Shown here piece by piece: positions 1 to 37,797 of a stretch of 64,000 nucleotides of DNA. Each line of letters begins with the position of its first letter. Within the stretch, counting starts at the first letter, position 1. This stretch comes from Warburgia ugandensis (Eukaryota; Streptophyta; Magnoliopsida; Canellales; Canellaceae), in NCBI GenBank assembly GCA_035236585.1, contig CP141132.1:57571880-57635879 (forward strand), in the 5' to 3' direction. The notes beneath the pieces are model-generated. The model did no database searches. It saw only the letters and a program-made list of their open reading frames with translations, and was not told the origin of the DNA. The position numbers and the translations under genes were made by a program.

Positions 1-2470
1 TCTTGGGATAAACAGTGGGAGATTTTAAGGTAAAAGTTTTATGAGGCTTAGAAAACTTATAGTAAGACACACATTTAGTAAGAGGATGTTCTGTAAAGGT
101 TTGAACTCCCTTTCTCAGTGCTATAGGCACATCAAAATAAAAAACAATAGGAGTGGAATTTGATAAAGAAGGATTAGAGTAACTTGGGGTTGTAGATGAA
201 TCATTGCTTGGAGAGTGATTGGTTTTGTGCTAGAGTTGTGGGCATGTCTTCATTTTTTTGATGAGTACCCCTTCGAGTGTAAATACGGAGTTCTGAAGTA
301 GGATTATGGTGATCTTGTCTTAGTATTTCTCCTCCTGTTTGTGAGTCATCTAAGTTTGGTAGCAGTAGACTAGTATTTCCTCTTTCTTCATTATTGTGAC
401 TACTAGAGGTGGAAGGATCAAGAACGGGTACGGGAGAGAAGGTAGTAGGCAGAGGAACAGCTGTTTCCCAAAATTGAGCTTTCTTATTTTCTCTCTTCCC
501 CTGAAGATAGTTTTGACCAAAGTAAGGCTAACTTCCCAGAAATGATACATCCATACTCACAAAGGTTTTTTTTGTTTTAGGAATATAACACTTATATCCC
601 CTTTTATTGGGGACATGGCCTATGAACACACATTTTTCCGCCTTAGGATCAAGTTTGGAACGAAGCCTACTAGGGATGTGTACAAACATAGTGCACCCAA
701 AAATTTTCAAGGGTAACTCAAAGAAAAGTCGACATTTAGGGAAGAAAGTTTTGAAACATTCTAAGGGTGTAATATATTTTAAAATAAGAGTAGGCATTCT
801 ATTTACCAAATCGGATGCTATCAAATTGCATCTCCCCATAAATATTTTGGAACATGCGTTGAAAACATAATAGCACATGCAACTTCAAGTAAGTGTCGAT
901 TTTTTCTCTCGGCAATACCATTTTGTTGAGGAGTATCACTACAAGTAGACTGATGTTGAATTCCTTTTTCTTTGAAAAAATTTCCCAAAACTTGATTGAA
1001 ATACTCAGTTCCATTGTTGGAATGAAGTATTTTTATTTTTGTTTGAAACTAGTTTTCAACAATATTGAAAAAAATTTGGAAAAAATTTTCAACTTTAGAT
1101 TTATCATTCATCAAGTATACCCAATATAGCCGAGTGTGATCATTTATGAAAGTTACAAACCATTTTTTTCCAGAAGATTTGGCAATTTTTGAAGGACCCC
1201 AAACATCACTACGAATCAAGTAAAAAGGTTTTGAGGCACAATATGGTTTTGAACTATAAGTAGTGCAATGGCTCTTTGATAAATGACAACTTCCACATTG
1301 AAAAGATGAACAATCCACATTTTTTAATAGAACAGGAAACATATATCTCAAATAAGAAAAACTAGGATGTCTTAGCCTAAGATGCCATATCATTATTTGT
1401 TCTCGGACAGAGAGAGAGCTAACATTAGTACTAAATCCCTGAGCTTGTTTATTACATAAGAGGTTGTGATCAAAATAGTAGAGACCATTTACCATTCTAG
1501 CACTGCCAATCATCATCCCCGTGCTCAGATCCTGAAAAACACAGTGTGAATCAGAAAAAATAGCACGACAATTGGAATCTTTAGAGAGTTGAATCATAGA
1601 TCAGAGATTCCAAGCAAGCTTATGGACATGAAGGACAGATTTTATGGTGATTTTATCAGAAATTTTGATAGAACCTTTTCCTGCGATAGATGAAAAATTT
1701 CCATATGCAATTCTGACTTTTTTATCACTAGAACATGGCAAATGAGAATGAAATATATGGGACAGATATGTCATGTGATCAGAAGCACCTGAATCAATGA
1801 TTCAAGGTGTATGACTAGAATGACAAGAGAAAGCACTAAAGTTGCTACCTGTTTGAGCCAAAGAAACACTAGGAATACCAAATTCTGGATTGGATTTTAG
1901 CAGCTTTAGAAGACGATCCATCTACTCTTTATTGAAGGGACCAGCATAAGCCTCACTTGCACGAGCATATCGGTCTCCAGGTTAGCTACTCTTCCAATTG
2001 GCAGGTTTGCCATGAATCTTCCAGCATGCCTCACGTGTATGACAGGGTTTGTTGCAAACATCACACCAAATCTGAGGTTTGTCCTTTGCTCTATGCTGGC
2101 TATTAGAAGTTCTACTTGTATTTGCATCAGCAGTGACTAGGGTAGAATTTTCAATTGGTGCCCCAGCCCCCTTTTTCCGAGCATAACACTGCAGCGACTT
2201 TCCTTCCTTCGAACTTCAGCAAATACCTCTCCAAGTGAAGGAAGAGGACCACGACCAATGACCCTTCTCCTTGCTTCATCAAATTCTACATTTAGGCTGG
2301 CAGGAAATTTGTCGATGCGGTCATTTTCCACTATCTTCTTGAGGTGCATGAGATCAGCTGAATATTCTCCTTTCCAACAAATAGAACTCATTTTAGGAGA
2401 GAAGATCATAAATGTTATAAGTGCATACGCCCCATAGGTAGGGTTAGGAGATAGAATCAAGAGACAGTTT
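1..2470 (-). mobile_element. Ty1/copia retrotransposon fossil, internal part (runs off left edge)
   Basis: The minus strand carries decayed copia polyprotein: part of gag at about 2140-2460, a gag-pre-integrase and integrase core at about 1050-1600 (zinc-binding HLRLRHPS, FQCGSCHLSKSH, then SDVWGPS) and the integrase C-terminal region at about 530-880 (PSRLRSKLDPKAEKCVFIG). Order along the strand is normal for copia. The reverse transcriptase and one LTR lie outside the window; the 5' LTR and start of gag are missing where the LINE begins. It is broken, with several interruptions, and looks old. Confidence 0.85.
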
Positions 2471-3183: not shown

Positions 3184-6100
3184 TGTATCGATCCTCAATT
3201 TTGGGTCATTTTCTATATATATTAAATCATAAATTTGATAGAGAGAAAAATCAGAATTAAATTTCATGAAAATTGGGTTTTATGAAAATAACATCTTTGT
3301 AAACTCAAAATTTGGACTTGGGAGTATCAAATTTGGAATGTACGTGTCGATACGATTTCAACGACACTAATTTTGTGCGAAACAAAGATTTGGAGTGAAA
3401 ATTTCAAAAGTTTTACAAATTGACAAGGGGCTACAATTGATAAAGACACCCCCCCCTGTTTTGTCTATTATGACATGCGGGTTGAGAAGGAGATAAGATA
3501 GGGGGGAACGCAAGGGGAGAAACCCTAGCCATTCGCCCTCCACTCGATCTCCCACCGGAAGTCCACCTTCCCTGATCAACAGCACACGAAGCATCTTCCT
3601 AAGGCGGACTCCTCTTCCACGTCACATACAGACTGGAAAACCCAATTCCGGTGATGCAAGGTGGGAACTCTTCCCCGTCGTTTTTCTCCCCTTCGTTTGA
3701 ACCCTATCGCCAAAACCCTTGTTGGGTTTTCCACCGGCTACGTTGGGAGGCTCGATCAGTGTAGATTCCCCTGTTCCAATCGATGTAGTTGCATGACAGG
3801 CAACCCTTGCTGGGTTTTTACCGGCGACACGAGGAGACACCAATTCTCTACCCTCCTACGTTGGGCTCTTTCTCCTCCTCTCCCCACTTCATTTTGCCCT
3901 CTGTGATTTCCTCTGGCACCAGCAGCGTACCCCGATCCCTCTACTCCTTCCCTCTCCTTCCATTCCTCCGATCGAGTTTCCCCTGCATAGGCTGCCACCC
4001 GATGTTCTTTTTTTCCCCTTATCTTTCCAGTCACCGACTCAGCCAAGCCATGGAAGGGCCAGCGAGCCAAGACCCATTTCCCCTTGTTTTTCCGCCTTGA
4101 GATCAAGCTCAGGTGGTGATCTCATCACAGCCATTGCCGGCCACCCTTTTCCCCTGTTTCTCCTTCACCTAGAGAGTCAAGGTGAGTTGACTCGTCGGGT
4201 CAACTCGTTCTTGACTCGTTTTTTATTGGGGGGGGTGCGATTGAGTTGACCCAGTACGCCCCATTTAACCCATGAACTTCAACCCTTGATTTTGACCAAT
4301 CCAGGAAGAGTCTTGGAGATTCGAGAGTATCCTCGCGATCCTAACAACGTGGGAAAGGATACTCATCTTCCCATTCTTCAATCAGGGAGGATCGAACTTT
4401 CGATTTGACCAGACCATTGATCAGACTCTAGATCATCTGATCCGAGACGATTTGATGTTACTTTCAGATCTAAATAGCCTACTACGATCCTCACGAAGTA
4501 TAGATTAAGATCTACACATGATATTTTAGATTTGAAATATCTAAGGAGAAGATTTAGCCGATCTTGATCAACGGCTGAGATCAACTGAAGATCCAAGTAT
4601 GAAATTGGATCCAATTTGATGATCCGAACCGTTTAGAATTCTTAATTGGATTAATTGATTAGAATTACTAAGTTGTTATGTGATCTAGGGTGATCAGGTG
4701 AGGATCTTTGATGAGATCGGTATGGATGTTTGATGATCGGGCACGATTGAGGCGATTAGTGGACGATCCGATCAAGTAGACGGCTAGAGGTTATTCAGAT
4801 TAACTTGTTTAAGGTATTATTACTGTCTTAATCACTTGATGGATTGGTTTGACTGTGATTGGATATGATTGAGCATGAAATTCATATAATAATGCTGATT
4901 AATTTATTTAAATGATAAATTACTTGCAATTGATATGATTTGAACCTAATAGCTCTAAAATATACATGGATATAATTAAGGACCAAATGATTATGAGTGG
5001 AACCCGCCTTGAGATTCCAGGGATGGGAATCTTTGGACTGTCTTGAATGTAATGTAATGAATATTGAAAGTGTAATGTCATGTAATTAAGAATCCAAGTT
5101 AAATAGAGTGGATTCTGAGTATGACTGGATATGATATGTATCTAGGTGATGGAATTGTAGTGGACTGCGTTAGAGATGGGTCCAACTTAATTGGGAGGTA
5201 TAGGTGAGTAGTACATCGTCTGAGGTAGGTGATTACATTTGGAATTTTTCTATGATTTCTTAAATCACGACGTATTGTTTGAAACTTTGAGGTGTGGGTT
5301 TTATGCTTTGCCATGTTTGCATGAGATTATTTTTCAGCATGTATTGCCGATATGCTTGCTACACATTTTGTGCATGATTTATGCACTGTTTCTAATATAT
5401 TTCAATTTGCATCGATTTGATTATTAAGGATGTTATACACTGATTTTTGATTCATGATGTTGATATATTGAATTACTCTCTCGATTTGGTTTTATCGAGA
5501 ATGATTATGTATGAATTTTTAATACTTGCTTCATGGCTGTTGATTTATGATGGGTGCTTCTGCTTGGCTGGTACTATGCTACGAGGGTTGTGGGGTTGGC
5601 CACCCACCCTCTGACTTTGTGATGATAATGATTAGACACCACCCTGAGAGGGCCAGGTACGTAGGTGGTCGTATCATGGGTAGTCCCCACTACGGGTCCG
5701 TATCTCCCATATGGGACGGAGGAAGTCTCCCGTTATGGTGTTGACAGGGAGTGGCAGTGGTTGAGATCTTGGTGTGGTTGCTACTGTAGCATAGTAGCCC
5801 ATACTCTTATGCTGTATGCTCATGTGACATGGTTATATGGTGTGAAGTGGGGTACGCTGGGCCTAAAGGCTGAAGTAGGTTGTATGCAAGAGATCATGGG
5901 CTAATCCGGGCCATAGGGCCAATGCGGGCTTCACGTGAGGGACCCACGTTTGGAATGAGTACTCATTACCATTACCGTGTGTAGTTAAGACACTCATCAG
6001 CTTGATTGTGTACAGTGTTCTGTTCATCATGACGTACATTTATATTATGATATGGACACAAATTCTTATTGCTTTTGATAGATGCATATCCATGTGTTGC

Positions 6101-6988
6101 AGACACAGATTCTTATTGCTCTTGATGGATGCTTATCCATGTATTGCTCATGCCTTGCATGTCATAATGGTTAGATTTGATATCGATTTGTTTAGACTTA
6201 TGATTTTCATGTGCTATTCATTATGGACGTATGATGATTGATGTGCCTTGCATATGTTTTATCTTATGAGATTCACCATGACATTGATATTTCGTGCCAC
6301 ATGATTTCATTGTATTTACTTATTGAATGTGATCACCTACACAAGCATAGCTTGCTGAGGCATTGCTTTGTTTGCAATGCCTCAGATACAGAGAGTTGCA
6401 ATAGGTTGACGCGCTGATAGAGTAGACAAAAGTGATGACAATTTCTAGTGGAGTATTGAGGACATTTCAGAGATGACAAGGTTCGTTCAGGACCTCACTT
6501 GGGTTATGGTTTATGGACTGTACGTTAACATAATTGCAATGTGACCTGGATGTGAGGATATGAAATTATGTTGGATGTGATCGCTATATGGACAAACCTT
6601 GGTATTTTGTCATGACTTGATTTTCTTATTCAGTGTTGGAGTATACATTTTCATTGAAAATAGTATTTGAGTAGGATGGATGGGCGTGGAGACTGAGTCT
6701 CCCAATTGTTGTGTCATGCATGGTGTTTATTAGGTGATTTTGTATCGCACATGTGATGTGTAATGGTCAAAATACAGAGGAGACTGTCGGATTTTCGGTA
6801 GAAACGAGATTTCATCTCACTGTTAAATCCACAGTTTTGTGGTTGTGTGACTCATGGGATTTTGAAATAAATGCTTTTTATTCGAGTTTTTATTTTTGGT
6901 CAATCTAAAAATTGAAGTTTTAATGAAGGGATCCCAACACATTTTATAAATTGTTATTTTATTGTTGAGAAAAACCCGGGGTGTCATA
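3184..6988 (+). mobile_element. Giant solo LTR of a Ty3/gypsy-like element (copy 1)
   Basis: This 3.8-kb unit has no recognisable coding sequence. It starts TGTATCG and ends GTGTCATA, is homologous at both ends and through most of its length to the units at 34686 and 39648, and is flanked by a perfect 5-bp duplication AAGGA (3179-3183 and 6989-6993). The interrupted LINE reads on across it. That makes it a solo LTR left by recombination. Del/Tekay-type gypsy elements have LTRs of this size and a similar beginning, so that clade is my best guess. It contains a GC-rich block (3440-4190) and a hairpin (6356-6384). Confidence 0.82.
6356..6384 (+). repeat. Perfect inverted repeat (hairpin) in LTR copy 1
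   Basis: The arms TGAGGCATTGC and GCAATGCCTCA surround the loop TTTGTTT, giving a perfect 11-bp stem. A smaller stem, CAAGC-ATA-GCTTG, lies just upstream. The structure recurs in the LTR at 34686-38393 and, in altered sequence, in the one at 39648-42731. Confidence 0.75.
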
Positions 6989-7169
6989 AAGGACTTAATC
7001 CACATTAAATACATTAAAAGTGATGACTAGAGGGTACTAGTAAAAAATGATGAGATCAACTGAAGATGAAAAATTTACTTTTAAAAAATTGTCAAATAAC
7101 AATTGTCCCGAGAATATAGAGACTGAAAGAGACATAAGCCCAAAAAACGTTGGAATACATAGATATGAC

Positions 7170-8348
7170 TGTGGTGGTCGTAATCAAGGATAGCGTCCTT
7201 AGTGCACATATTGTAATAAGATTGGACACACTCGGGATCTGTGTTACCAACACACATTCACCCATTCTAAGGGTTTCTCTCTATCTCTCTCTCTTGGCTC
7301 AACTTTAACATGGTATCAGAGCCATAAGAGAAACCCTAATTATCTACCTTCTCCTTTTCTTTTCCTTTTTTTGGTTTGGCTGTGTATCCATTCCGACAAT
7401 TCCTTTGGCTATGGTGCTTCTTTATCGGTCACCCCTCTGTCATCTCTAGCGTTCCAAGATCACCGCTACTGCCACCAAATTGTTGTTGCTGCCGATCTTC
7501 GCCGTAGACCGCCCAAATAAGTAATCATGGCTTCTAAAAATGGTATTTTCACTTCTGTAATTTCTGGATCTCTTGTTATTACGTCAAAGAAATTAGTAGG
7601 TAGTGAATATTATCTGTCTTGGTCTGCCTCTGTAGAATTATGGTTTATGGGTCAAGGTTATGAAGACCATTTTGTCAAGAAAGAGGAAGATATTTCTGTT
7701 GCAGAGAAAGTGCAATGGAAAAAAATTGATGCACAATTATGCAGCCTATTATGGCAATCCATGGATCCCAAAGTTTTACATCATCTTCGCGCCTATAAAA
7801 CATGTTTCAAATTTTGGACCTAGGCCAAGGGCTTATACATGAATGATATTCAATATTTTTACAAAGTTGTTTATGACATTGTTCATGTTAGACAACAGGA
7901 CATGGATCTTTCGACTTACATAGGAAAGATTGCGTCCCTTAAGGAGGAGTTCTTGTCTCTAATGCCTCCTACTAATGGTGTAGAAGCCCAACAAACACAG
8001 ACTGATAAGTTTTCCATGGTGTTGACTCTCATTGGGCTCTGCCCTGACCTTGAATCCGTCAGAGAACAAATTCTGGCTAGCCCTTTGGTGCCCTCATTGG
8101 ATGAAGTATTTTCCCGCTTGTTGCGTATCTCTACTTAGGCAGTTACTTTTGGTGGCCCTTCAGATTCCTCAGTTTTGGCTTCTCAGGCAAACGCTAGAGG
8201 TGGCCATGGTGGTGGTCGTAACCGAGGACAGCGTCCTCAGTGCACATATTGTAATAAGATTGGACACACTCGGGATCGGTGTTACCAACACATATTCACC
8301 CATTCTAAGGGTTTCTCTCTATCTCTCTCTCTTGGCTCTACTTTAACA
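7170..8348 (+). mobile_element. Compact gag-only LTR retrotransposon (TR-GAG-like, copia-derived)
   Basis: Direct terminal repeats of 141 and 142 bp (7170-7310 and 8207-8348) start TG and end TTTAACA. They are flanked by a perfect 5-bp duplication ATGAC (7165-7169, 8349-8353). A primer-binding site TGGTATCAGAGCC (initiator Met tRNA) follows the left LTR at 7311-7323. The interior, about 900 bp, holds only a copia-type gag (about 7527-8300), and its zinc knuckle CTYCNKIGHTRDRC lies inside the right LTR. There is no protease, integrase or reverse transcriptase, so it must rely on partners. The LTRs differ at roughly 5% of sites, suggesting an insertion a few to perhaps 15 million years old depending on rate. 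The gag frame is broken in about two or three places; the element ends look whole. Confidence 0.85.
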
Positions 8349-9835
8349 ATGACCATAGGGTCAGGATACCCAAAGTGAAAGAGGCCTTAAAAATGATGAA
8401 ATCGAGGAAGGTCTTGGTGCACAATGGTTTACTAATATAGGTTTGGAAGTATATGGGAGATACTGGAGTAGTCTAATTGATAAAGTTGTTTAACAAGATG
8501 TAAAATCCAAGAAAATTTTAGATGAATAGAGGAAAAGCTCTATTATACCAATCTATAAGAATAAAAGAGACATGTAGAATTGCACTAATTATTGTGAGAT
8601 TAAGCTTATGAGCCATACCATGAAACTTTGGAAAAGTGGTTGAGAAGAGGTTACGACATAAGACAAGAGTATTGAAAAACCAGTTTGGTTTCATGCTTGG
8701 AGATCTACCATGGAAGCTATTTTTGTACTTAGACAGTTGATAGAGAAATATAGGGAGAGGAGGAAAGACTTCCACATGGTCTTTATTGACTTAGAAAAAG
8801 CTTATGATAGTGCCCCTAGAGAGTTAATATGGTGTGCATCGGGCAAGAAAAGGGGTTTCATAGGTTATGTAGGCATAATTAAGGATAAGTATGAGGGAGT
8901 GGTAATCAATGTTAGGACCACTAGCAAAGAGGCTGATGATTTCCCTATCACTATAGGATTGCATCAAGGATTGGCATTAACCTCGTACCTTTTCACGTTG
9001 GTTATGGAAGAGTTAATAAAACAGCTATACGAGGAGATTCCTTGGTGAATATTATTTGTAGATGACATAGTATTGATTGACAATACAAGAGAGGGTGTAA
9101 ACACAAAGCTAGAGTTGTGGAGAGATGCTATAGAGTCTAAGGTATTTAAAATTAGTTGAACTAAGACAGAGTGTATGGAATTCAATTTTATCAAGAAGAG
9201 GAGTGAGAGTGAAGCACTAGTAAAATATGATAGCCAAGAAATCCTCAAAAAGACTGGTTTCAGTATTTAGGATTGATAATTCATGAGAGCAGAGAGATTG
9301 AGAGGGACGTTACCCATAGAATCCAAGTGAGTTGGAACAAATGGAGATGGGCCTTTGGAATTTCGTGTGATGGTGCCACTCAAACTAAAAGGAAAATTCT
9401 ATATGATATTTGCAAGGTCAGCCATGCTTTATGAATTAGAGGGTCGAGCAGTTAAGGAACACACGTACATAGGATGAGCAAAGCCAAAATGAAGATGTTG
9501 AGATGGATGTGTTGCAAGACAAGAAAGAATAGAAACATAAATGAAAATATTAGAGGAAACTTGAGTAGCCGATAGGTAACAAGATGAGGGAGGGTAGGCT
9601 TAGATGGTTTGGACATGTCCAAAGGATACCAAAAACAGCTCCGGTTAGGAGTGAGTCGATTCAAGTCGAATGTTCTAATAGGGCAAGGGAAGGCTCACGT
9701 GGATAGAAGTAGTGAGAAAATATTTAAAAGCTTTTGGACTAAATGAAGCCATGACACTTGATAGAGGGGAATGGCGAAACAAGATTCATGTAGTCGACCC
9801 CTAACCAGGATAAGGCTTTGATGATGATGACAACT

Positions 9836-12373: not shown

Positions 12374-15300
12374 TTTGACTACTGGAAAGAAAATCAGAGG
12401 TTGGAGGAATCAATACTGTCTCGAACTTTCTAGTGAATGGTTTTTAATTCCTGAAATTCTTTCCTCAGCCTTTGAACTCCTTTCGCCATCATAAGGAAGT
12501 TTAATGAGGTCTAGGGGCACATTTGGATTTCAATCAAACACCACTTCAAAAGAAGAAAAACCTGTAGTTAGGTGATTTTTTTGCATAATTAAACTCAAAC
12601 TCGATCTTAAGAAAGACAGTCCCAATATTCCCAAACTTTGACTTGAGCATGGAACATATTCCCAAATGTTTGAATAATTATCTTCATTTGGCCATCGATT
12701 TGCAGATGTGTCGTGCCACTAAATTTCAATGTAGCACAGATCTTGTTCCATAGGCAAGTCTAAAAAGTGCTTAAGAATTTTGTGTCTTGATCAGTAGTAA
12801 TGATTTTGGGCAAACCATGGTATCAAACGACCTCCTTGAAGAATAAATCACCCATCTTAGTTGCATCATGAGTGGTTCTATAAGCAACAAATGTGCCATC
12901 TTTGAGAAACAATCAATCGCCACAAAGATACTACCACCCCCCTCGTTGTTCAAGGCAATCCAACAATAAAATCCATTGAATTTCAGGCCATGGATAGAGA
13001 GGAATGAGCGGAGGCATAGAACTTGTCATCTAGCAAAACGCCAACTGCAAAACACTAGTTTGTATACTCCTGTTTCTATTCCAAATTCTCCCTGGGAAGA
13101 AGCAAGTGTGGACCTTGTCATTGGACTACCGAGACCTCAGTGAAACAAAGATTCTGCTATGGTAGTTGTTGACCATTTTCAAAGATGGCGCACTTCATAG
13201 CCTGAACTAAGACAATTGAGGCATCACATGTGGCGGATCTATGTTTCAAGGAAGTCATTAGACTTCATGGTGCCCAAGACTATTGCATCAGATTGAGATC
13301 CTAAGTTTATGAGTTATTTTTGGCAAAATGTTATGGAGGAAACTTGGAACTCGATTACAATTTAGTTCTTCATGCTATCCTCAGACCGATGGGCAGCCGA
13401 AGCTATTAATAGAAGTCTAGGAAATCTGCTATAGAGTTCTGTGGGAAAGAATATCCGTCAATGGGACTAGCTGCTAGCACAAGCCGAATTTGCTTCCAAT
13501 AGTTCCTACAGTTAATCAACCGGTTGTAGTCCTTTTTAAGTGGTATATGGTAAGAATTTTTTAAGGCCTATGGATTTAGTACCCCTACTGGTAACCAATA
13601 ATTTCAGTAGAGATGCCAAAGAAAGAGCTAAGCAAATCAATGCATGAGCAAATTTGAGCAAAGATTGCACAGCAGAATGAAAAGTACAAAGAGCAAGCTG
13701 ACAAGCATAGAAAGCATACCTTTCAGACAAGAGATTTGTGTGGATACATCTTAGGAAGGATTGTTTTCCTCAAGGAAAATACTCAAAGCTCAAGCCATGA
13801 GCCGCAGGTGCTTTCAAGGTTTTGAAGAGAGTTGGTCACAACACTTATAAGATTGAACTACCAACAAAATATGAGGTTTCAGACACCTTAAATCTAGCGG
13901 ACCTTTCACCACACAAAGGAGAGGATGATGCATACAACTCGGGGACAAGTTCTTTTCAACTTGGGGAGAATGACATAGGAGTGTCCAAAAATCCCAAGAT
14001 CAATGGCAAATCAAAGGAGATCAAGGATGATTAGTATTGGACGACCAAGATCACATCAAGACTATGAACAAGATTGGCCAAGGATGGAAGGACGTCATCA
14101 ACATAAAGTATTTAAACAGTTTTCATCTTCCAAAGAAGGCATCTCTGTGCTAAGATGAAAGATGCCTAGGATTAAACAATGTTGGATATTCTATATCAAA
14201 TCTTGAAGATCGTATGGGGGATACTGAGATGGACGTTTCAGATTGGCCTTTTAGAAACCGTCTATTGACCAGCCAAAGTTCCCTACCTTGAAGAGGTCAA
14301 AAAATGCCTCCGACAAGTCTTCCTTGGTCAAGGGCTCAAGGTGTTGACGAGTCAAAGATTCTAACTACCAAAGTTAAGGAAAGTGCTTGTTAGGAATCAA
14401 AGAGTTTAGGAACTTGCTATTTGGTATTACAGTAATTAGTAATTAATTAATTGTAATTAGCAGCTACCCAATGTTTAGTGAGAACTAATTGGGCAACATC
14501 CAAATTAGGAAAGTCTTGTTGGGTATGTGCTTTACATTTAAAATATATGGTTTAGCCTAAGAAACTTATGTACTTAGATAGTTGCTTAATGCTTTGTACA
14601 TCACTTATTTGGGAGGGCTGTGCCCATTTATAAATATCTTAGATTTGAATCAAATACACATAGTTTGAGAACTACTCATAACTGGACGTTTTTTCCATGG
14701 TGCTTAAGAGTGTGAGTTGCATCTCAAGTTTCTATGCTTTCTGCATCATTTGGAGGGGTCCAAGTGTGGTGAGGCGCCTAAGTTTGTATATTAAGATGAT
14801 GAGTGTTTGTATCCTTGTGGCAGTGAGTTAGTTTTTTACATATAGTTTTTATTGCTTGGTGGTGTCTTTGTATTCAGATGTGGTGAGTGATTATTCCATT
14901 TTTGTTCTTTTATCTCTTGGCAGTGTTTCTGTATCCAAGAATGGTGAGCTAATCTTTTACTTAAATTCTACAGTGGTGATCATTTTGTATTCATAGAAAA
15001 ACTAATATAATACTTGGCTTATGTGGTGGTGAATGTTCTATACCCACAGAAGACTTGGAAGCCTATTCTCTTTTATTATATTGTTTATAATTTCACCCGA
15101 TTATCCAGTTAGGAGGAAGAATAATTGAGAAGAGGCTATGACATGAGATGAGTGTATCAAAAAAACAGTTTGGTTTCATGCCTGGTAGGTCTATATGGAA
15201 GCTATTTCTTGCTTAGAGACTTGATACAGAAATAGAAGAAGAGGGGCAAAGACTCCTCATGGTCTTTCTTGACTTAGAAAAAGCTTATGATGTGATCCCT

Positions 15301-17966
15301 AGAGAGTTAATATGATAGGTGTTGGGCGACAAAGGGGTTTCACGGGAGTATACAGACATAAATAATGATATGTATGAGGGAGTGCTAACAAATGTTTGGA
15401 CCACTAGAGGAAAGACCGATAATTTCCTTATCACTATATGATTGTGTCAAGGCTTGGCATTAAGCCCATACCTATTCATGTTGGTTATGGATGAGTTAAC
15501 AAAACATCTACACGAGGAGATTCCACAGTGCATGTTATTTGCAAATGAAATAGTTTTGATTGACAAGACAAGGAAAAACGTAAACACAAAGCTAGAGTTG
15601 TGGAGAGATGCTATAGAGTCTAAAGAATTTAAAATTAGCTGAACTAAGAAAGAGTATATGGATTGCAATTTTAGCAAGGAAAGGAATGGAAGTGAAACAC
15701 CAGTTAAGATGGATAACCAAGAAGTCCCCCAAAAAGACCACTTTCAATATGTGGGATCAATAATTCATGAGAGTAAGAGATTGAGAGGGATGTTACCCAT
15801 AGAATCCAAGTGGATAGGAACAAATAGACATGTGCCTCTGGAGTTTTGTGCGATCCACAAGTGCTACTCAAACTGAAAGGAAAATTCTATAGAGTGTTTG
15901 TAAAGCTAGCCATGCTCCATGGACAGTGAGAGTAGTCAAAATCAGGATGTTGAGATAAATAAGTAGCAAGACAAGAAAGGATAGAATTAGAAATGAAAAC
16001 ATTAGAGGAAAATTAGGTGTAGTGACAATAGGTAACAAGATGAGGGAGGGTAGACTTAGATGGTTTAGACATGTCTAACAAAAATCGAAGAAGGAATCAT
16101 TTAAGAGTAAGTCGATTCAAGTCGAAGCCTCTAAAGGGGCAAGGGGAAGGTTCAAAACAATGTGGATAGAAGTGGTGAGAAAAGATTTAAATTTTTTTTG
16201 ACTAAATGAAGCCATGACACTTGGTAGAGGGGAATGGAGGAACAAGATCCCTATAACTGACGCCAAATTAGGATAAGGCTTTGATGATGACGACCTGGTT
16301 ATCTAGTGTCAGTCACAAATGTGCTTAGGGCATTAGATAGCTCGAAAGGCATCACCGACCATTCATAAAATCCACAAGTTTTGAATGTCATCTTCCATTC
16401 ATCACAGAGCTGGATTTGGATTTAATGATATAGACTTTTAAGGTCTTATCTTAGAAAATATGGTCGCGCTACTTAGTGGATCAAGCAAGTCATTCAATCA
16501 CGGATTTGGAAAACAATACTTAATAGTGATTTTGCAGGTGGCATGGCTATCAATGAACATCCTCCATGACCCATCTTTTTTTCAAACAAGTGGAATGGCA
16601 CATGGGTTAGCAATCTCACAAACATACCCCTTTTCAAGCTCTTCAACTTGTCACCTCAATTTTTCACGCTCGATTGGGAGACATATGATAGTGCGAACAA
16701 TTTCAAAGTGTAGCATTGTGGATTAAATCAATATGGTGCTGGGTTTTCAGCATTTGAGGTAATCTAGGTGGAAAATCATTCAAAAAACATCTAGAAACTC
16801 TTCCAAAAATGGTTTAGTAGTTGAGTGATCCCTAATCTAGGGTTGAGTGGATCACCTTAGGCATTAGTGATTCTGCCACTTGCTAGTTGAATGATTGAGC
16901 CTTGTTTCCTTCTCATTCGCAGCCCCCACCAGAAGAGTCAATTCTGCAACCGTTGCAAATGCAACAACCACAATGTTGCTAAATGCAATTGTAGACCCCA
17001 TCCATTACAAAGAGCCCTAAAGCACCTCCCAAAGCATACCATACTGCTGCTGATACACAACCTAGAAGCACATCTACTACGCAAACTTCTAGGACTCCTG
17101 AGGCTTCAAGAAAGTGTCACTAAATCCAAGATTGATCATCTCTAGCCCTTTACTTATCATGCAACAGATGTTACATCTAATCCATAGAGCTGAACTATAT
17201 CCTAATATAATTAGTTATATGAGTAACTTCATGATGTTATTCTTAAGGCAATAGGTAATGATTCATAGAACATTTTGCCAGCTCACATGAGGATATCTGT
17301 GTCTCAACTCAAGGCAATCTTAGTATCATTTATCACTACCATGTTTTCTGTTTGTAATTATTTTCTTTATGTCGACTTTGAATAGAAATACATATGACTT
17401 ATCATTTTCAACTTGATCACATGATACAAGGATATAGAGTCATCACCGTATTTGACATTCTCTATGAATTTTATCACCTTTTTGTTCCATAATTTATATG
17501 ACGATGCTCTTGAGCATCTAAAGAAGTCAATGCCCCTATTTGACATTCATGGTGAATTTTTTGGAAGATCTAAGCCACTCATCATGTTGGGAATGTCTTA
17601 GATAGGCTAAATGCAAAAATTTTATGTACATTTGATTCTTTTAGCCTGTGCTTCTTTGATATGGAAATTTCCATTTAGGCCATCCAATTCTATAAATTTT
17701 TGCAGGACACAAGTGGTTAGGATCATCTGAATGGATTGATTTCTGATGAGTGACCAATTTTTTATGTGCTCTCGGTGAACGGCTTAGATCTTTCCAAAAA
17801 TTTGACCATGCATGTGAAAAAGGGGCGTCAACTTCTTTGGACGCTCCTAGAACTCATATGGTACTGACTATCTCTTGACAACAACAAAACTGCATAATCA
17901 AAATGAAATGTTAGACATTTTCTAGTTATAAGAATGTTATAGGAAAGTCAGGCATCCTTTTTAGCA

Positions 17967-27000: not shown

Positions 27001-29921
27001 CCAAGCTTCTCCACTATAATCAAAACTAGTGTACAAGAACCACTTTAGGACCTATTCCAGAACTCACTCCAGGAGCCACTCTCAAAACCTAGGCCTAAAG
27101 CCACAAGAAGTGGCACTTAGGCTTACAACAAAGATATCGAATGTATTCAATGCAATTCAGTGAAATGATTTGCTAAACCATCCTTTTATAGGTGAAGGAG
27201 AGTTGTTTTTGTCTATCAATGGTGGGTGCCACATGCATGTTACGCCAATATATGGTCATCATCATCATCATCATCATCATCAAGGCCTTATATTGATTAG
27301 GGGTCTACCACATGATTCTTGTTTCTCCGTTTCCCTCTATTAAGTATCATGGCTTCATTTAGTCTCAAAATTTTTAAATCTTTTCTCACCACTTCTATCC
27401 ACATTCTTTTGGGCCTTCCCCTTGCCCTATTAAAAACTTCAACTTGGATTTCTCACTCCTTCTAACCAGTGCTGTTCTTGATCTTTATTGAACATGTCCA
27501 AACCATCTAAGTCTCATCTCCCCCATCTTGCTACCTATTGGTGCTGCTCCCAAGTTTCCTCTAATGTTTTCATTTCTAATTCTATCCTTTCTTGTCTTGC
27601 CACACATCCATCTCAACATCCGCACCTCAGTGATGCTCATCCAATGCACATGTTGTTCCTTAACTGCTCAACACTCTTAAAGCATGGCTGGCCTTAAAGC
27701 CATCTCATAGAATTTTCCTTTCAATTTGAATAGCACCCACCAATCACACAAAACTCCAGAGCCGCATCTTCATTTGTTCTGAGCCGCTTGGATTCTCTAG
27801 GTGACCTTCCTCTCAATCTCTCCGCTCTCATGAATTATTGATCCCAAGTATCGAAAGTGGTCTTTTAGTAGGACTTCTTAGCTATCAATCTTTGCTACTG
27901 CTCCAATCGTTCCTCTCCTTACTAAAATTGCATTCCATATATTCTGTCTTAGTTTGGCTAATTTTAAATCCTTTAGAATCTAATGCATCTCTCCATAACT
28001 ATAGCTTTGCGTTTATGCCCTCTCTTGTCTTATCAATCAAAACTGTATCATCTGCAAATAAAATGCACCATGGAATCTCCTCGTGTAGATGTTTTGTTAA
28101 CTCATCTATAACCAATGTAAAAAGGTACGGGCTTAATGACAATCCTTGGTGCAATCCTATAGTGATGGAAAAATAACCTGTCTCTCAACTAGTGGTCTCA
28201 ATGTTTGTTACCACTCCCTTATACATATCCTTAATTATGTCTACATACTCCTGTGAAACCCCTTTCTTGCCCAACCCCTACCATATCAACTCTCTAAAGA
28301 CCCTATTATAAGCTTTTTCCAAGTCAATAAAGACCATGTGGAGGTCCTTCCTCCTCTCCCTACATTTCTCTATCAATTGTCTAAGTAGGAAATAGCTTCC
28401 ATGATATACCTGCCACGCATAAAACCAAATTGGTTCTCCAATACACTCATCTCATGCCATAGCTTATTCTCAATCACTCTTTCAAAAAGTTTCATATTAT
28501 GGCTTATAAGTTTGATGCCTCAATAATTAGTACAACTGTGTACGTTTCCTGTATTCTTATAAATTAGTACAATAGAGCTCTTTCTCCATTCATCAGGTAA
28601 TTTCTTAGATTTTACATTCTTATTAAACAATTTTGTGAACCAAACTATTCTAGTATCTCCCATATACTTCCAAACCTCTATTGGTATACTATTGGGCTCT
28701 AGGGCCTTTCTTGATTTCATCCTTTTCATGGCCTCTTTTACTTTAGGTATTCTATTCTTACGGTCGTATCTATAATGTCCAATGTTATTTGGGTTTATGG
28801 TACTTTCAATCCCTATATTCTTAAGGTAATTGTCATTTAGTAATTTTTTAAAGTAACTTTCTCACCTCTCTGATCTCATTATCTATTACTTGTACCCTTT
28901 CATCATCACTTTTAATGCATTTAACGTGATCTAAGTCCTTACTCTTTTGTTCTCTTACTTGTGCAAGTTTAAACACATCTTTCTCACCTTCTCTTAACCT
29001 TAGTCAATTATAAAGATCATCATATGAGTTTAGCCTCACTACTCTCTTAGCAACATTTTTAGCAATCTTATATTATTCAAAGTTTTTGTTATTTTTTAGT
29101 CCTCTACCATGCTTTAAAACACACCCGCTTCTGATTCCAAAAACTCAGATTTTCAACTATATACATACTTCTGATGCTAAGAAAATCACATATAGCATCT
29201 GTATGTGTTTGTGACGGGGGTGTACGCCCTAGTTAAGCTAGCTAAGTCATTTTGTACAATTTCAGACTGATTCGAGTTTTTAAATTATCTCCCCAAAATG
29301 ACTTTGTTAGTTCAGGAACAAAGACTAGTCGAAATTGTATCCTTGATCAGACTGATGCCCATGCGTAATTCTAGAAACCTACATCCTCACCCTTGCAACT
29401 CATGTCCAATTTCACAAACAACCATGTGAAAATCAGTAGTACACCAGTATCTCATTCAAAACTGGATCTATAGATTGCCTATACCCCGGTACCAATCATC
29501 TAACCCAAATACATCCATTTTCAAACTCGAATGAAGAAAAAATTATCTGAAAAGCCTAATTTTAACGGAATTAGCTGATGGTTACTAGTTTGATCAGCTT
29601 AAAAATTAAATGAGGAAACTAGTTTCAAGCAAAGCAGACTCGAAACAACCTTACAAACAGAACTACAGAATTGTGAAAAATCTGACACCGAGCAATTCAA
29701 TAACAACAATATGGTTTAAACGATCGAGATGCAGTACCAAATGGCTAGAAAAGAGAGAGATATATGAAGCAACCTTGACGCTTTTCGGAATTGAGCTGAG
29801 AGGAATCGCAGTAGCAGCCAATTCCGTTTCTTTGGGAATTGGAAGATCTGAGGATTTGTTTTTGCCGGAAAATCGATGAACGGAGAAGAGAAGAAGAGAT
29901 GGAGGAAAACCTTCCCATCAT
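11566..29921 (-). CDS. AFG1: AFG1/LACE1-family mitochondrial AAA+ ATPase, N-terminal 303 residues (six exons, 3' part outside window)
   Basis: Seen: six minus-strand exons, 29921-29774, 23750-23614, 23522-23383, 18468-18323, 18143-18064 and 11823-11566, all with GT-AG borders. Their lengths (148, 137, 140, 146, 80, 258) total 909 bases, exactly 303 codons without a stop. Residues 1-49 form a Ser/Arg-rich presequence starting [16 protein letters not shown]; residues 50-141 are the family's N-terminal region (GPLALYR, EEYHVHLAKWE); Walker A GNVGSGKT is at 186-193, RRRFHFHE ends at 217 and Walker B LCFDEI is at 297-302. Known: AFG1/LACE1 proteins (yeast Afg1, human AFG1L, bacterial ZapE) are P-loop ATPases of the mitochondrial inner membrane that help remove respiratory-complex subunits. 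Family members are about 450-500 residues, so roughly a third is missing; no later exon was found before the left edge. The gene looks intact and functional as far as seen. Unusually large introns carry copia, gypsy, LINE, SINE and MITE insertions. Confidence 0.93.
12298..12371. repeat. (AG)n microsatellite, about 37 units
   Basis: Uninterrupted AG dinucleotide run within AFG1 intron 5. Shorter GAGAGA runs lie just upstream at about 12160-12180. Confidence 0.97.
12400..13035 (-). mobile_element. Ty3/gypsy fossil, integrase part (minus strand)
   Basis: Decayed integrase core reads on the minus strand: [14 protein letters not shown] at about 12880-12925, then [22 protein letters not shown] at lower coordinates and the C-terminal region around 12500-12560. 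The reverse transcriptase of what is probably the same element continues at 16298-16800, after a foreign block at about 13040-16297. Broken in several places. Confidence 0.7.
13040..15110 (+). mobile_element. Ty3/gypsy fossil, 3' half: integrase, C-terminal domain and LTR (plus strand)
   Basis: The plus strand shows an integrase remnant ([11 protein letters not shown] at about 13110-13140) and then a chromovirus-like C-terminal stretch [16 protein letters not shown]...LADLSPH near 13832-13910. A purine tract ending TATGGGGGATAC sits just before a TG start at about 14221. The following ~890 bp, with a TATA-like TTATAAATA near 14629, is taken as the 3' LTR, ending where the LINE begins. The 5' half is absent. 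Broken in many places. LTR limits are approximate. Confidence 0.65.
15113..16297 (+). mobile_element. RTE-type LINE, 5'-truncated copy in AFG1 intron 5
   Basis: It begins inside the reverse transcriptase (IEKRL-like, then [34 protein letters not shown] at about 15450-15530, and FANEIVLID where YxDD is expected). The C-terminal part is [12 protein letters not shown] and later [10 protein letters not shown]. The tail at about 16272-16290 is GATAAGGCTTTGATGATGACGA. It is closely related to the LINE ending at 9835 and shares its 3' end. Stops and small shifts show it is dead. Confidence 0.88.
16298..17150 (-). mobile_element. Ty3/gypsy fossil, reverse-transcriptase part
   Basis: The minus strand gives [23 protein letters not shown] and ATIFSKI around 16430-16560, preceded by EELEKGYV-like and NPCAIPL sequence: a gypsy RT of chromovirus type. 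Its orientation and order fit the integrase piece at 12400-13035. At 16935-16985 the plus strand also shows a CCHC-like knuckle ([14 protein letters not shown]), so a second gag relic may be nested here. Broken in several places. Confidence 0.65.
17151..18063. other. AFG1 intron 5, 3' portion, with (AT)n microsatellite
   Basis: An uninterrupted AT run of about 22 units occupies 17969-18012, close upstream of exon 5. The remainder, 17151-17968, shows no protein or repeat I recognise. Confidence 0.6.
18064..18143 (-). CDS. AFG1: AFG1 exon 5 (Walker A lysine)
   Basis: An 80-base exon with acceptor AATGCAG|GAAAG and donor CATGAG|GTTAG. It completes GKT and continues [14 protein letters not shown] and [10 protein letters not shown], the family signature directly after the P-loop. 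It is too short to stand out as an open frame and was found by joining phases with exon 4. Confidence 0.93.
18323..18468 (-). CDS. AFG1: AFG1 exon 4 (Walker A, first part)
   Basis: The acceptor is AATTAG|GAGAAG and the donor GGAAGTG|GTATG. It encodes [12 protein letters not shown], then [19 protein letters not shown] and [11 protein letters not shown]. The P-loop is split by the intron after GNVGS plus one base of the next Gly codon. IEPGVGK and KG(V/L)YLYG are strong family marks. Confidence 0.93.
18920..19275. repeat. Tandem duplication, period about 180 bp
   Basis: Two adjacent units at about 18920-19099 and 19100-19275 share TTTCACAA.CTG, TTATTCAGCAAATT, GTAAACAGATCCATTCTTTG and GGAAAGAAACTCCAAAAG in the same order and spacing. 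They are diverged, with no coding role seen. Located in AFG1 intron 3, flanked by unassigned sequence on both sides (18469-18919 and 19276-19640). Confidence 0.85.
19660..20110 (+). repeat. Repeated module A, interrupted by an Au SINE
   Basis: The module runs from CTTTTGATGGAGGGTTCAGA...AGACAAAATAATTACTG through CTAGTTGGTAATTGAGTGTTTAAT and GAAGGACATCTATTACTTTT to TTCTAATTGATG. The same order recurs directly at about 20118-20312 and inverted at about 21090-21330. The SINE at 19779-19960 splits this copy. The inverted copy suggests terminal inverted repeats of a decayed DNA transposon or MITE, but true ends were not resolved. Confidence 0.7.
19779..19960 (+). mobile_element. Au SINE, full length
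   Basis: The tRNA-derived head GGGGAGCCTTGGCGCAATGG holds the A box, GGTCACGGGTTCAAGG holds the B box, and the body has GCCTCTTGCAAAATGCAAGG and GGGAGCTTTGTGCACCAGG, ending CTGCCCC and a T run. All are hallmarks of the Au family. Diverged target duplications, TACTAGTTTTTGYATT, flank it at 19753 and 19961. Length 182 bp as expected. It lies within AFG1 intron 3, in the sense opposite to the gene. Confidence 0.95.
20118..20930 (+). repeat. Repeated module B, interrupted by a hAT-like MITE
   Basis: A second direct copy of module A: GGTCAAACAAGACAAAATAAG, TAGTTTTCTGTGTTCTATTGTTG, GAAGAACATTTATTGC and TATTAAGGGAA. It breaks at about 20312 and resumes at about 20880 with ACACACTTCTAATTAATACA, matching module A, so the 566 bp between is an insertion. 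Confidence 0.65.
20313..20879. mobile_element. hAT-like MITE (non-autonomous DNA transposon)
   Basis: The ends read AGGGATGGCAAC and, inverted, AGAGAAGGCAAT, resembling hAT-type termini. The insertion splits a repeated module, and the flanks (AATTCACT and AAACACAC) look like a decayed 8-bp target duplication. Inside are two similar halves, each with GGGACC..AC, a GGGTCAGGA-type stretch and TTAGGG or TAGGGTC followed by AAATCTG. No coding capacity. Confidence 0.55.
21090..21330 (-). repeat. Repeated module C, inverted copy
   Basis: Read on the minus strand it repeats module A: CTTTTGATGGAAAGGTCAGA-like start, GACAAAATAACTACTGCTACAG, then GGTCCTAGCTGGTAATTAAG and the AGTGTTCTGAAGAAGTT region. 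Together with modules A and B it makes an inverted-repeat cluster of about 1.7 kb. Confidence 0.7.
21799..22096. mobile_element. Possible solo LTR (copia-size)
   Basis: A block starting TGTCAGGAAT and ending TTCTAACA. Its reverse strand has a TATA-like TTTATATATTTGTATAATTG followed by GAGAGCGAAGC, as in many copia LTRs. A G-rich tract precedes it. No matching flanking duplication was found, so ends and identity are uncertain. Confidence 0.35.
22097..23382. other. AFG1 intron 3, 5' portion, unassigned
   Basis: No gene, RNA or repeat recognised between the LTR-like block and exon 3. Open frames here are short and lack known motifs. Confidence 0.4.
23383..23522 (-). CDS. AFG1: AFG1 exon 3
   Basis: The acceptor is TTCCAG|GTACAC and the donor CTCAGG|GTGAGG. 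It encodes [18 protein letters not shown] followed by a linker ending KKWFSG. The charged LAKWE...RRLL helix is typical of plant AFG1-like ATPases. It ends in phase 2 and joins exon 4 as WFSG-RRNKD. Confidence 0.9.
23614..23750 (-). CDS. AFG1: AFG1 exon 2
   Basis: The acceptor is CTGCAG|GACC and the donor TATCAT|GTATAT. It encodes residues 50-95, including [27 protein letters not shown] and ending EEYH. This is the N-terminal helical region of AFG1 proteins, ahead of the P-loop. It is separated from exon 3 by an intron of only 91 bases. Confidence 0.9.
24200..27258 (-). mobile_element. Ty1/copia fossil with one LTR, 5' part only (AFG1 intron 1)
   Basis: The LTR at 26877-27258 (382 bp, TG...CA) is followed on the minus strand by a primer-binding site like TTGGTACCAGAGCTC (initiator Met tRNA). 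Then come gag ([18 protein letters not shown] at about 26520-26575), the integrase C-terminal region ([20 protein letters not shown] near 24890-24970), a linker with duplicated DDPDEVDGD, and the beginning of reverse transcriptase near 24240-24450. Most of RT, RNase H and the other LTR are absent. Broken in several places. It lies in the same orientation as AFG1. Confidence 0.85.
27259..29130 (-). mobile_element. RTE-type LINE, 5'-truncated copy in AFG1 intron 1
   Basis: The 3' end at 27259 is a (TCA)n run followed by AAGGCCTTAT, the inverted RTE tail, directly abutting the copia LTR. Reading minus: reverse transcriptase starts [23 protein letters not shown] (28660-28735), continues [26 protein letters not shown] (28315-28340), the GLSLSPYLF region (about 28125-28165) and FADDTVLID (28030-28055, a YxDD-type site), then the C-terminal domain. 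It is the most complete RT of the three LINEs here but still carries stops. The 5' end fades near 29130. Confidence 0.88.
29131..29773. other. AFG1 intron 1, 5' end, unassigned
   Basis: Non-repetitive sequence between the LINE and exon 1; nothing further recognised. Confidence 0.4.
29774..29921 (-). CDS. AFG1: AFG1 exon 1 (mitochondrial presequence)
   Basis: The start is the first of two adjacent ATGs (29919-29921, then 29916-29918) and the exon ends CAAG|GTTGC. It has 49 codons plus one base. The peptide is rich in Ser and Arg with few acidic residues, as in plant mitochondrial targeting sequences. The phase-1 end supplies the G that joins exon 2 to give Gly-Pro-Leu, the usual beginning of the conserved family region. 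Another start further upstream cannot be excluded. Confidence 0.82.
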
Positions 29922-34685: not shown

Positions 34686-37220
34686 TGTAACTACTCTAAA
34701 ATTTAAGTCATTTTCCATGATTTTAAATTATGATTTTAATGGGGATAAGGAATTCCAACTAAATTTCATGAAAATTAAGTTTATAAAAAAGACCTCTTTA
34801 TGGGCTTAAAATTTGGACTCGAGAATATCAAATTTGGTATGTACGCATCGATATGATCACAATGACACTAATTTTGCATGAAACGGAGATCAGGGCGGAA
34901 AACCCAAAAGTTTTACTAATTTAGAGGGGTCAAAATTTGATATTGACAACCTCTAGTGGACTGACACACACAACGCGATAGCTGGGCCACGCATCGCATT
35001 ACCCTCCCCCGCGTCGCATTACTGAAACAGGAAAGAAGAGGGGATTGTCGAAAAACCAGCGACCCAAAACCTTCCTCTCCCCCATATGATCTTCCCTTCC
35101 CGCTCTGATTTCTCTGCTCGTTCCCCAGCTTTGGCATGTAGACCTCTAGATCAGGTTCCAATGCTTGATCTCTTTTCCGGGAACCCTAGTCGGGTTGTCA
35201 CCGGTAACGTAGGGAGCTCTCGATCAACCCCCCTGCTTAGGGGCCGGCGACCTCCTCCTTCCCCTCCTTTTTTCCAGCGTAAATGGAAACCCATATCAGG
35301 TTTCTCCTCAGGCAGCCAGCCACCCATATGCCACCCATCCCCCTGTTCACTAATGACGGACAAGGACCTGATCACCCCTAGCGTCCATCTCTCTCTCTCT
35401 CTCTCTCTGGCACTGATTAGGAAACCCATATTGGATTATTTTGGTGGTGAGCAAACCCCCATCTTCCCCTACTTCTCTTCCCCATTAGGTTTTGGCAGTG
35501 ACCGAACTGGCAGCCGATGGCCACACATCTGAAAACCCTCTCCCATCTCTTTTTCCGTCACTGGCTCAGCCAACCATGGGAGGGCCGGTGAGCCAGAATC
35601 CTCTCTCTTGTTCTTCCCCTTGCCATGGGCGCAGGCGTGAACAGCCTGCCAACCTTGCCAGCTATCTGTTTCCCCTTTCCCCTGACTCGTTTTAGGGAAT
35701 CGGGTGGACTCGGTACACCCTAATAAACCCTTGATCTTTGACTAGCGATTCTGACCAATCCAGGGGTAATCTCAGAGATATGAAAGTACCCTCATGATGT
35801 GTGGAATGATACCCATCTTCCCATTTTTCAATCAGGGAAGATCTAACTATAGATTTGACCAGACCTTTGATTGGAGGTCAGATCGTCTAATTTGTGATGA
35901 TCTGACTTCTTTTTTTTTTTTTTTTTTTTTTCTGATCCAAGTAGTTCGTAGTGATTCTCATGAAAGGTAGATCACAAATTTATACAAGAAAGTTGGGTCT
36001 AAAGTGTTTATGGAGATGATTTAGCTGATATGGATCAACAACTGAGATTAATCGAAGATCCAGGTATGAAATTGGATCCAAATTTATGATCTGAACCATT
36101 TAGAATTCTTAATTGGATTAATTAACTAGAATTACTAAATTATTATGTGATCTAGGGCGATCATGTGAGGATCGTTGATGAGATCAGCATGGAGATCTGA
36201 TGATTGAGCAAAGTTGAAGCGATCCATGGACGATCTGACCTAGCAGACAGCTTGATATTATTTAGATTGATTTATTCAAGGTAAGATTATTATCTTAATC
36301 ATTTGATGGAGTGATTTGATTTCAATTAGATATGATTGAGCATGATATCCATATAGTAATGCTCAATTAGTTGATTTAAATAATAAATTTCCTAAGATTG
36401 GTGTGATCTGGGCTTCATACCTTTGGAATATGAAATGATATAATTAAAAAGAGTGACTAAATGATTATGAGTGGGCCCAATTAAGTATGATTCAAATTAT
36501 TAGCCAATTAAGGCTGGTCCTGCCTTGGGATTCCATGGTTGGGAATCATTGGAATGTCTTATACGCGATGTATTGAAAGACAAAAGTGTAATGATGTGTA
36601 ATTGAGAATCCAAGTTAGATAAAGTGGATTATGAGTATGACTGGATGTGATATGTATCCAGGTGATGGAATTGTGGTTGATAGCGCTAGAAATGGGTTTG
36701 ACTAAATTGGGAGGTACAGATGAGTAGTACGTCATCTGAGGTAGGTGGTTTCATTGGAAATTTCTCTATGATTTCATTGATCACGACCTGTTGTCAAAAG
36801 TTCTTGAGGCATGTGTTTTGCATCTTACCATATTTACATAAAGGTGTTCCCTACTTCTTGTTGATGGCATGACATTCGATTTTACGAATAACCATGTTTT
36901 ACATGTGATGGACTGTACTTTATCATGGGCTTTGCTCGTACCTATTGAGGTTATTTTACATGAGAGTTTTCTATGATTTCATGGATCATAACATATTATT
37001 TTAGAACTTTGAAGCATGAGTTCTATTCATTATCATGTTTTCATTAAAATTCCTTTATTATACATGGTTGATATTACGATAACTTGATTTACATGATTTA
37101 ACCCTATATTTCACTATATGACTGATATTGCACTACCATTGTCTTAGATTATATCTTATGGAGGTGGTTACTCATTGGAGTTTCTATGCTTTATCGATTG
37201 GAATAATTGAGGTTGTGATA

Positions 37221-37401
37221 GGATGCATCCCCCCTCCGCCCCCTATGAGTGCCTGTGACAGTGAAAGGGTGAAAGCAGGATTAGAATGTGTCTTCCCGTG
37301 AGTGCGTAAGTGTCCCATGTGGGTGAAAGGGTGAAAGCGGGATTGGAATGCGTCCTTCTATGAGTGCTTGAGTGCCCCGTCATGGGTGAAAGGGTGATAG
37401 C
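37221..37401. repeat. Tandem repeat, period 62-63 bp, in LTR copy 2
   Basis: GTGAAAGGGTGAAAG recurs at 37261 and 37323, and as GTGAAAGGGTGATAG at 37386; ATGAGTGC-like and GTGCCC-like words recur between. A half unit precedes. The arrangement is absent from copies 1 and 3. Confidence 0.85.
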
Positions 37402-37768
37402 AAAAAGTATTGAGAGTCAAGCCCATGTCGCCATGAGTGTAGTTGAGACACTCATAGGCTTGATTATGCATGATATTCTATTGATTTTTGACATACATTA
37501 CATTATTCTATGGACACAGATTTTCATTATTTCGATTGATGTATATCCACATATTTATCTCATGCCTTGCATGTTGTGATGGTTTGACTTGATATCGATT
37601 TGTCCAGACTTATGATTTTAATGTGTTATTCAGCATGGACGTCTGATTATTTGGCGTGCCCTATACATGTTTTATCTTATGAGATTCACTATGATCTTGA
37701 TACCTCACACCATTTAATTTTATTGTATTTATTTTTGAATGTTAATCACCTACACAAGCATAGATTGT

Positions 37769-37797
37769 TGAGGCATTGCTTTGTTTGCAATGCCTCA
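37769..37797 (+). repeat. Perfect inverted repeat (hairpin) in LTR copy 2
   Basis: The same 11-bp stem TGAGGCATTGC / GCAATGCCTCA with loop TTTGTTT as at 6356-6384. Confidence 0.75.

Follow-up and report, generated by a model that had tools for sequence, protein, structure and literature searches.

To our knowledge, the birth of TRIM and TR-GAG elements is poorly understood. In the working definitions given in the available excerpt of PMC6022998, a TR-GAG has GAG as the sole domain of an interior bounded by two LTRs, whereas a TRIM has no domain and fewer than 2000 bases. One Arabidopsis TR-GAG, AT5TE33540, has been seen to transpose and carries a 562-aa GAG ORF, with high similarity of the element to an autonomous relative (PMC8704663, available excerpt), and gag-only elements are mentioned in oil palm (PMC4608283, likewise an excerpt). 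Abnormal template switching, in turn, makes complex plant elements (Sabot and Schulman 2007, PMC1950507), with Veju and BARE-2 named as switch products in the accessible portion of a 2026 review (PMC13317346).

The mini-element described here is located in a 64-kb window, that is, the whole stretch of DNA that was analysed, and it is a TR-GAG-like one-off (table 1). It fits the two-LTR/GAG-only definition, with a weak gag domain match (E 0.0031), and the resemblance to TR-GAGs proposed by a previous sequence-only reading is upheld by the two LTRs around a gag-only interior, the target site duplication (TSD) and the primer binding site (PBS). A copia family that may have served as its autonomous partner is present in the same genome. 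That reading had also described the element as containing only a gag; gag is indeed the sole interior content, but it is not intact, since two stops interrupt the frame and no terminal stop lies inside the element. TR-GAGs are repeated families with several paired copies; here a single paired locus and a single fragment were found. In contrast to AT5TE33540, the mini-element has an LTR that is itself gag, its gag frame is interrupted, and a single paired copy was recovered. Similarly to TRIMs, the element is very short (1.2 kb, with 141-bp LTRs), but a gag remnant is present and the no-domain definition does not apply. With the template-switching complexes it would share an abnormal jump of reverse transcription followed by one integration with a TSD. 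In those complexes the jump leads from one RNA to another, R to R, and gives large three-LTR elements, whereas here it would go from R to gag and give a miniature with a new U3. In BARE-2 and long Veju, as named in PMC1950507 and in the available parts of PMC13317346, foreign sequence was brought in, unlike in the mini-element.

Gap-free alignment of the LTR pair (7171-7310 against 8209-8348) showed 133 identical positions out of 140, with five transitions and two transversions, and the difference in length is due to one 1-nt difference among the outermost bases. The PBS, which we take to be of the initiator Met tRNA type, as previously proposed, directly follows the left LTR and is the sole exact match of its sequence in the window; when up to two mismatches were allowed, there were two matches against 1.27 expected by chance. 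The duplication at the two ends is perfect, and it is real because a LINE paralogue on the minus strand (27271-28940) lacks the insert and carries ACGAC only once. When the two host flanks were joined in a script, their alignment to this LINE copy spanned the insertion point. The ATGAC at both ends together with the empty LINE site therefore mark the insertion as a genuine integrase-type event.

Table 1. Features of the mini-element, its empty insertion site and one native copy (positions are those of the window unless a contig is named)
Feature	Position	Strand	Length	Remarks
Mini-element	7170-8348		1.18 kb	LTR-gag-LTR, interior of gag only
Left TSD ATGAC	7165..7169	+		inside LINE sequence
Left LTR	7170..7310	+	141 bp	TG...CA
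New "U3" of left LTR	7170..7245	+	76 nt	from gag (nucleocapsid/knuckle)
Knuckle counterpart in left LTR, CTYCNKIGHTRDLC	7203-7244			four CCHC residues same as in right LTR
Fusion in left LTR	7244-7251			as in right LTR
R-U5 of left LTR	7246..7310	+		from native copia LTR; fusion at ACCAAC 7246-7251
PBS, TGGTATCAGAGCC	7311..7323	+		directly 3' of left LTR
Untranslated leader	7324..7526	+		common to mini-element and native copia family
gag reading frame	7527..8348	+		in-frame TAG stops 7821-7823 and 8136-8138, then open to element end
Candidate cryptic PPT	8195..8206	+	12 nt	purine-rich, in gag before TG at 8207; putative plus-strand priming site
Right LTR	8207..8348	+	142 bp	TG...CA
CCHC zinc knuckle, CTYCNKIGHTRDRC	8241..8282	+		coded inside right LTR
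Fusion in right LTR, TTACCAAC	8282..8289	+		last six letters ACCAAC common to gag and native R
Right TSD ATGAC	8349..8353	+		perfect match to left TSD
Empty insertion site	28660..28830	-		second LINE copy, single ACGAC, no insert
Further native copy (L029)	C7:55893200-55899500

A search of the host assembly (1.12 Gb, 14 contigs) with the left LTR as query gave 1035 candidates, of which 40 were scored. Only three of the 40 matched over the full length, namely the two LTRs of the mini-element and one site on contig C9. The remaining 37 matches end at LTR position 81-87, and the five of these loci that were fetched (L004-L008) are copia gag. In the four whose retrieved stretch reaches the 5' LTR (L004-L007), there is no LTR homology downstream of the knuckle, and gag is preceded by a native LTR composed of a U3 of approximately 142 nt, TATATA, then ACCAACACACATTCACCC...TTTAACA and then the PBS. 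The native LTR measures approximately 205-209 bp, and the same LTR was recovered in loci drawn by the R pattern. At 10 R sites in 3' LTRs, a polypurine tract (PPT) of the type TTGAGGGGGAG precedes each. The family is multicopy, with 370 exact R starts in the assembly (three fused ones counted) and 498 sites when the 31-base R pattern was allowed up to three mismatches. For instance, the copy L034 (C4:11381700-11386700) has its LTRs 4.5 kb apart and contains the Pfam pieces Pol_BBD, gag_pre-integrs, SH3_retrovirus and RVT_2, although it is itself broken by stops.

The resident family, represented by L034 and L029, shares R-U5, PBS, leader and gag with the mini-element, which lacks the native TATA-bearing U3, the PPT and pol. 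The gag region of the mini-element is 87-94% identical to native gag across the 14 loci with a match, and at most 94.5% identical to any native row of the gag tree. This tree is unrooted and was built from the loci already retrieved, i.e., those 14, with L008 dropped for short cover; L005 (the same copy as L029) and the loci of the mini-element and of C9 themselves were left out beforehand, and its 13 native rows represent 12 loci, as L017 and L034 are one copy. The mini-element groups with L004, L007, L022, L027, L029 and L034, a set separated from the remaining native rows at a support of 0.97, and L027 is its nearest relative (support 0.70). The homology of gag, leader, PBS and R-U5 and this grouping among native copies show that the mini-element descends from the resident copia family. 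Its LTR divergence (K2P 0.052) exceeds that of L034 (0.020) and L029 (0.025). At a substitution rate of 1.3e-8 per site per year it corresponds to an age of about 2 Myr, with a wide error given that there are only seven changes.

The two mini-element LTRs have the same composition, base for base at the fusion: gag sequence runs to ...GTGTT, followed by ACCAAC, which is found in both parents, and then by native R-U5. Where native R-U5 is preceded by a U3 of approximately 142 nt, the mini-element LTR switches from gag to LTR at ACCAAC. Native U3 and native PPT are absent from the element, U3 being replaced by gag at both ends. The sequence-only reading had asked which autonomous copia the ends came from; R-U5 came from the native family, and the U3 part came from gag. 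A larger copia that kept its own LTRs and simply lost pol, which the same reading had offered as a counter-case, is ruled out, since the native U3 is absent at both ends.

The position of the joint is informative as well. At 22 of the 26 R sites examined, the native TATATA begins 33 nt ahead of the junction point, and at the other four the distance is 31-32 nt; most of these sites had been drawn by a pattern that favours the TT allele. Because of this spacing, the fusion is placed at the predicted transcription start, that is, at the start of R and the end of strong-stop DNA, with the R start itself predicted from the TATA box. The microhomology between gag and R is 6 nt (ACCAAC) with the alleles that prevail among native copies and reaches 8 nt (TTACCAAC) with TT-bearing copies, with TT preceding ACCAAC at 30 of the 367 native exact R starts (the three fused sites subtracted). 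In the internal region of L034, ACCAAC occurs twice against 0.73 expected by composition. Both occurrences lie within TTACCAAC, for which 0.08 would be expected; one coincides with the knuckle, and the other lies in pol, at position 3360.

These results are best accounted for if the mini-element is a dead, single-event derivative of copia, whose terminal repeats were made anew during reverse transcription, and we give this reading a probability of roughly 0.57. In detail, a family RNA starting at R would have been packaged, and tRNA-Met would have primed minus strong-stop DNA, i.e., R-U5. The 3' end of the strong stop, a copy of ACCAAC... (of TTACCAAC in a minority of copies), would then have missed the 3' R, annealed to the same letters just past the knuckle codons of gag and been extended through gag to the PBS. 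Plus-strand priming in a G-rich stretch before the knuckle would have given a plus strong stop of knuckle plus R-U5, and an ordinary second transfer at the PBS would have produced two LTRs of knuckle-R-U5. The integrase of the family would have inserted the product into the LINE with a 5-bp duplication, after which the element would have decayed. That the fusion arose at the first-strand transfer, where the plus strand was primed, and that the enzymes were supplied by the copia family, we infer.

Ectopic transfer is supported by the absence of native U3 and PPT and by the TG of the new end, which follows a purine-rich stretch. This stretch may be a cryptic PPT, fitting yet weak: when 72 TG sites were scored, it reached 9 (rank 7, tied with four others), as compared with 13 for the native PPT and 10 for the TG at 8210. 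On the other side stand the weakness of this PPT, the shortness of the microhomology, whose 8-nt form requires a donor with the TT allele, and the outermost bases, which differ between the two LTRs.

The same joint could have arisen by deletion first, i.e., a native copy would have lost, through microhomology, everything between the gag knuckle and the beginning of R in the 3' LTR, and its RNA would then have been reverse-transcribed with first-strand transfer proceeding as usual and with a cryptic PPT. The family does undergo such losses. At L040 1365-2216 (C4:15035375-15036226), a native 5' LTR, a degenerate PBS and the start of gag are followed by a fusion of gag into the U3 of the 3' LTR, immediately ahead of the TATA box, and GAAAG flanks both sides. 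This is a 0.85-kb pseudo-mini-element left by deletion after insertion, because the 5' LTR keeps its full U3. It shows that gag-to-3'-LTR deletions also occur, and one reaching exactly R and followed by normal copying would produce the window element, with an end product indistinguishable from it; a microhomology of 6 nt is, moreover, equally usual for a deletion and for a strand jump. On the contrary, a deletion could break anywhere in the approximately 142 nt of U3, yet the observed break falls at the predicted R start with no U3 left, and no deletion parent with the same junction was found in the assembly. Deletion alone does not yield the C9 locus either, where the fusion runs into PBS and leader. 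Ectopic transfer is preferred for these three reasons, and deletion first is considered possible, if rather unlikely.

Another way to obtain equal ends would be gene conversion or recombination at the DNA level once the element had inserted, with copies of gag and of the LTR as participants, for which the numerous family copies would offer partners. The identity of the fusion to the base at both ends, the perfect TSD and the clean empty site fit instead a single integration of one pre-fused molecule, and conversion is considered very improbable.

The fused gag/R junction, searched with up to three mismatches in the whole assembly, was found at three sites, which represent two loci: two sites are the LTRs of the mini-element and the third is C9:58625152-58625183. 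At the same tolerance, paired fused ends exist at one locus only, that of the window. Set against the 370 exact R starts, a screen for non-A bases at positions -4 and -5 before R returned three places, each of which belongs to one of the two loci already described. Two masks placed further upstream of R, the first a stricter form of the second, returned one and three places, respectively, with a place on C3 in both. The C3 match is due to chance, as it lacks homology with the native L034, the C11 match is a native LTR altered by point changes, and the C4 match is L040, with its native 5' LTR and its gag-to-U3 deletion. The masks are exact and the two-base mask is estimated to overlook approximately 44% of random upstream sequences; therefore, rarer ectopic junctions may be hidden.

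The C9 locus (L003 and L033) contains a 214-bp stretch (L033 4888-5101) of gag tail, knuckle, R-U5, PBS and a few leader bases, and its 9.9 kb of surroundings showed no further match to L034. Its R-U5 comes from a 5' end, because PBS and leader follow it, and the same fusion running into PBS and leader is in accordance with ectopic transfer. The C9 fragment may stem from another jump into this position of gag, or it may be a remnant of a tandem or circular form of the window element, which counts against taking it as an independent event. Apart from the fusion, no derived change was common to C9 and the window element in comparisons with 11 native gag rows and 24 native R-U5 rows. Accepting C9 as a second, independent event would make strong-stop transfer to gag microhomology a recurrent birth route of miniature LTR elements, used twice in this genome, and we find this generalisation doubtful. 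If it were true, a single step would yield LTRs that are complete, integrase-competent and equipped with an entirely new U3.

Two side observations concern this locus. The fragment adjoins the apparent 3' part of a SINE, as read from repeats within L003, and by eye it is in opposite orientation to copia-like pol sequence at L003 400-1000.

The sequence-only reading had suggested a distinct family, and had named the existence of this one copy alone as grounds for rejecting it. In the genome search for paired copies only the window element was recovered, and the fused junction occupies two loci in 1.12 Gb; the suggestion is thus not sustained. An established TR-GAG family with a knuckle-coding LTR, spread with the help of autonomous copia, would account for the complete ends, the PBS and the TSD, for a TAATAA at -32 of the junction, which could serve as a weak TATA, and for the second fused locus. 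The single paired copy at up to three mismatches, the lack of derived changes in common with C9 and a gag that would give a non-stop mRNA all argue against it. Such a family in this assembly is largely refuted and is considered improbable, and the mini-element looks like a one-off copying accident.

The gag frame bears on the proposed "economy" of a knuckle written inside the LTR. The placement of the knuckle in the right LTR, with a counterpart in the left, was confirmed. The first stop in the gag frame after 8138 is at 8376-8378, already in host DNA, and therefore a transcript ending in the LTR would be non-stop. The non-stop frame and the single paired copy thus speak against a selected economy, and the overlap of knuckle and LTR looks like a by-product, not a design. 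Pfam support for gag is weak but consistent: the first gag piece matched Retrotran_gag_2 (E 0.0031, below the curated cut-off), the second matched no family, and the knuckle piece matched zf-C2H2_10 (E 1e-5) at 25.6 bits, below the cut-off of 26.2. Homology to native copia gag, in contrast, is clear.

A literature search found no description of a gag-derived LTR, an absence that is no proof, and no LTR with a gag U3 is described in PMC1950507 or in the available parts of PMC6022998, PMC8704663, PMC4608283 and PMC13317346. Since the native family is in the same genome, the joint can be read to the base, and the mini-element is a case in which the birth of an LTR can be read and which illustrates how mini-elements could arise. 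New LTR ends can arise from protein-coding sequence and still integrate normally, and the simplest route to such gag-derived ends is most likely one wrong jump during reverse transcription. This provides a signature searchable in any genome, namely a gag-R joint at the predicted start of transcription, with U3 missing. It is also a caution that coding sequence overlapping an LTR need not imply selection.

For the window as a whole, a plasmid BLAST, Rfam at the gathering threshold and ARAGORN gave nothing. A search of viral contigs with one gag piece returned 20 stretches fitting the pattern, none of which was confirmed. Window 2018-2328 (minus strand) gave weak tblastn matches to the knuckle and second gag pieces (E 0.001 and 0.06) and is perhaps a distant copia gag. 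The LINE that hosts the mini-element is present in three diverged copies (approximately 80%) within approximately 20 kb, at 8366-9830, 15117-16294 and 27271-28940. Similarly, the regions 4349-6973 and 35799-38379 share blocks of approximately 80% identity in conserved order, and they are probably two copies of another repeat.
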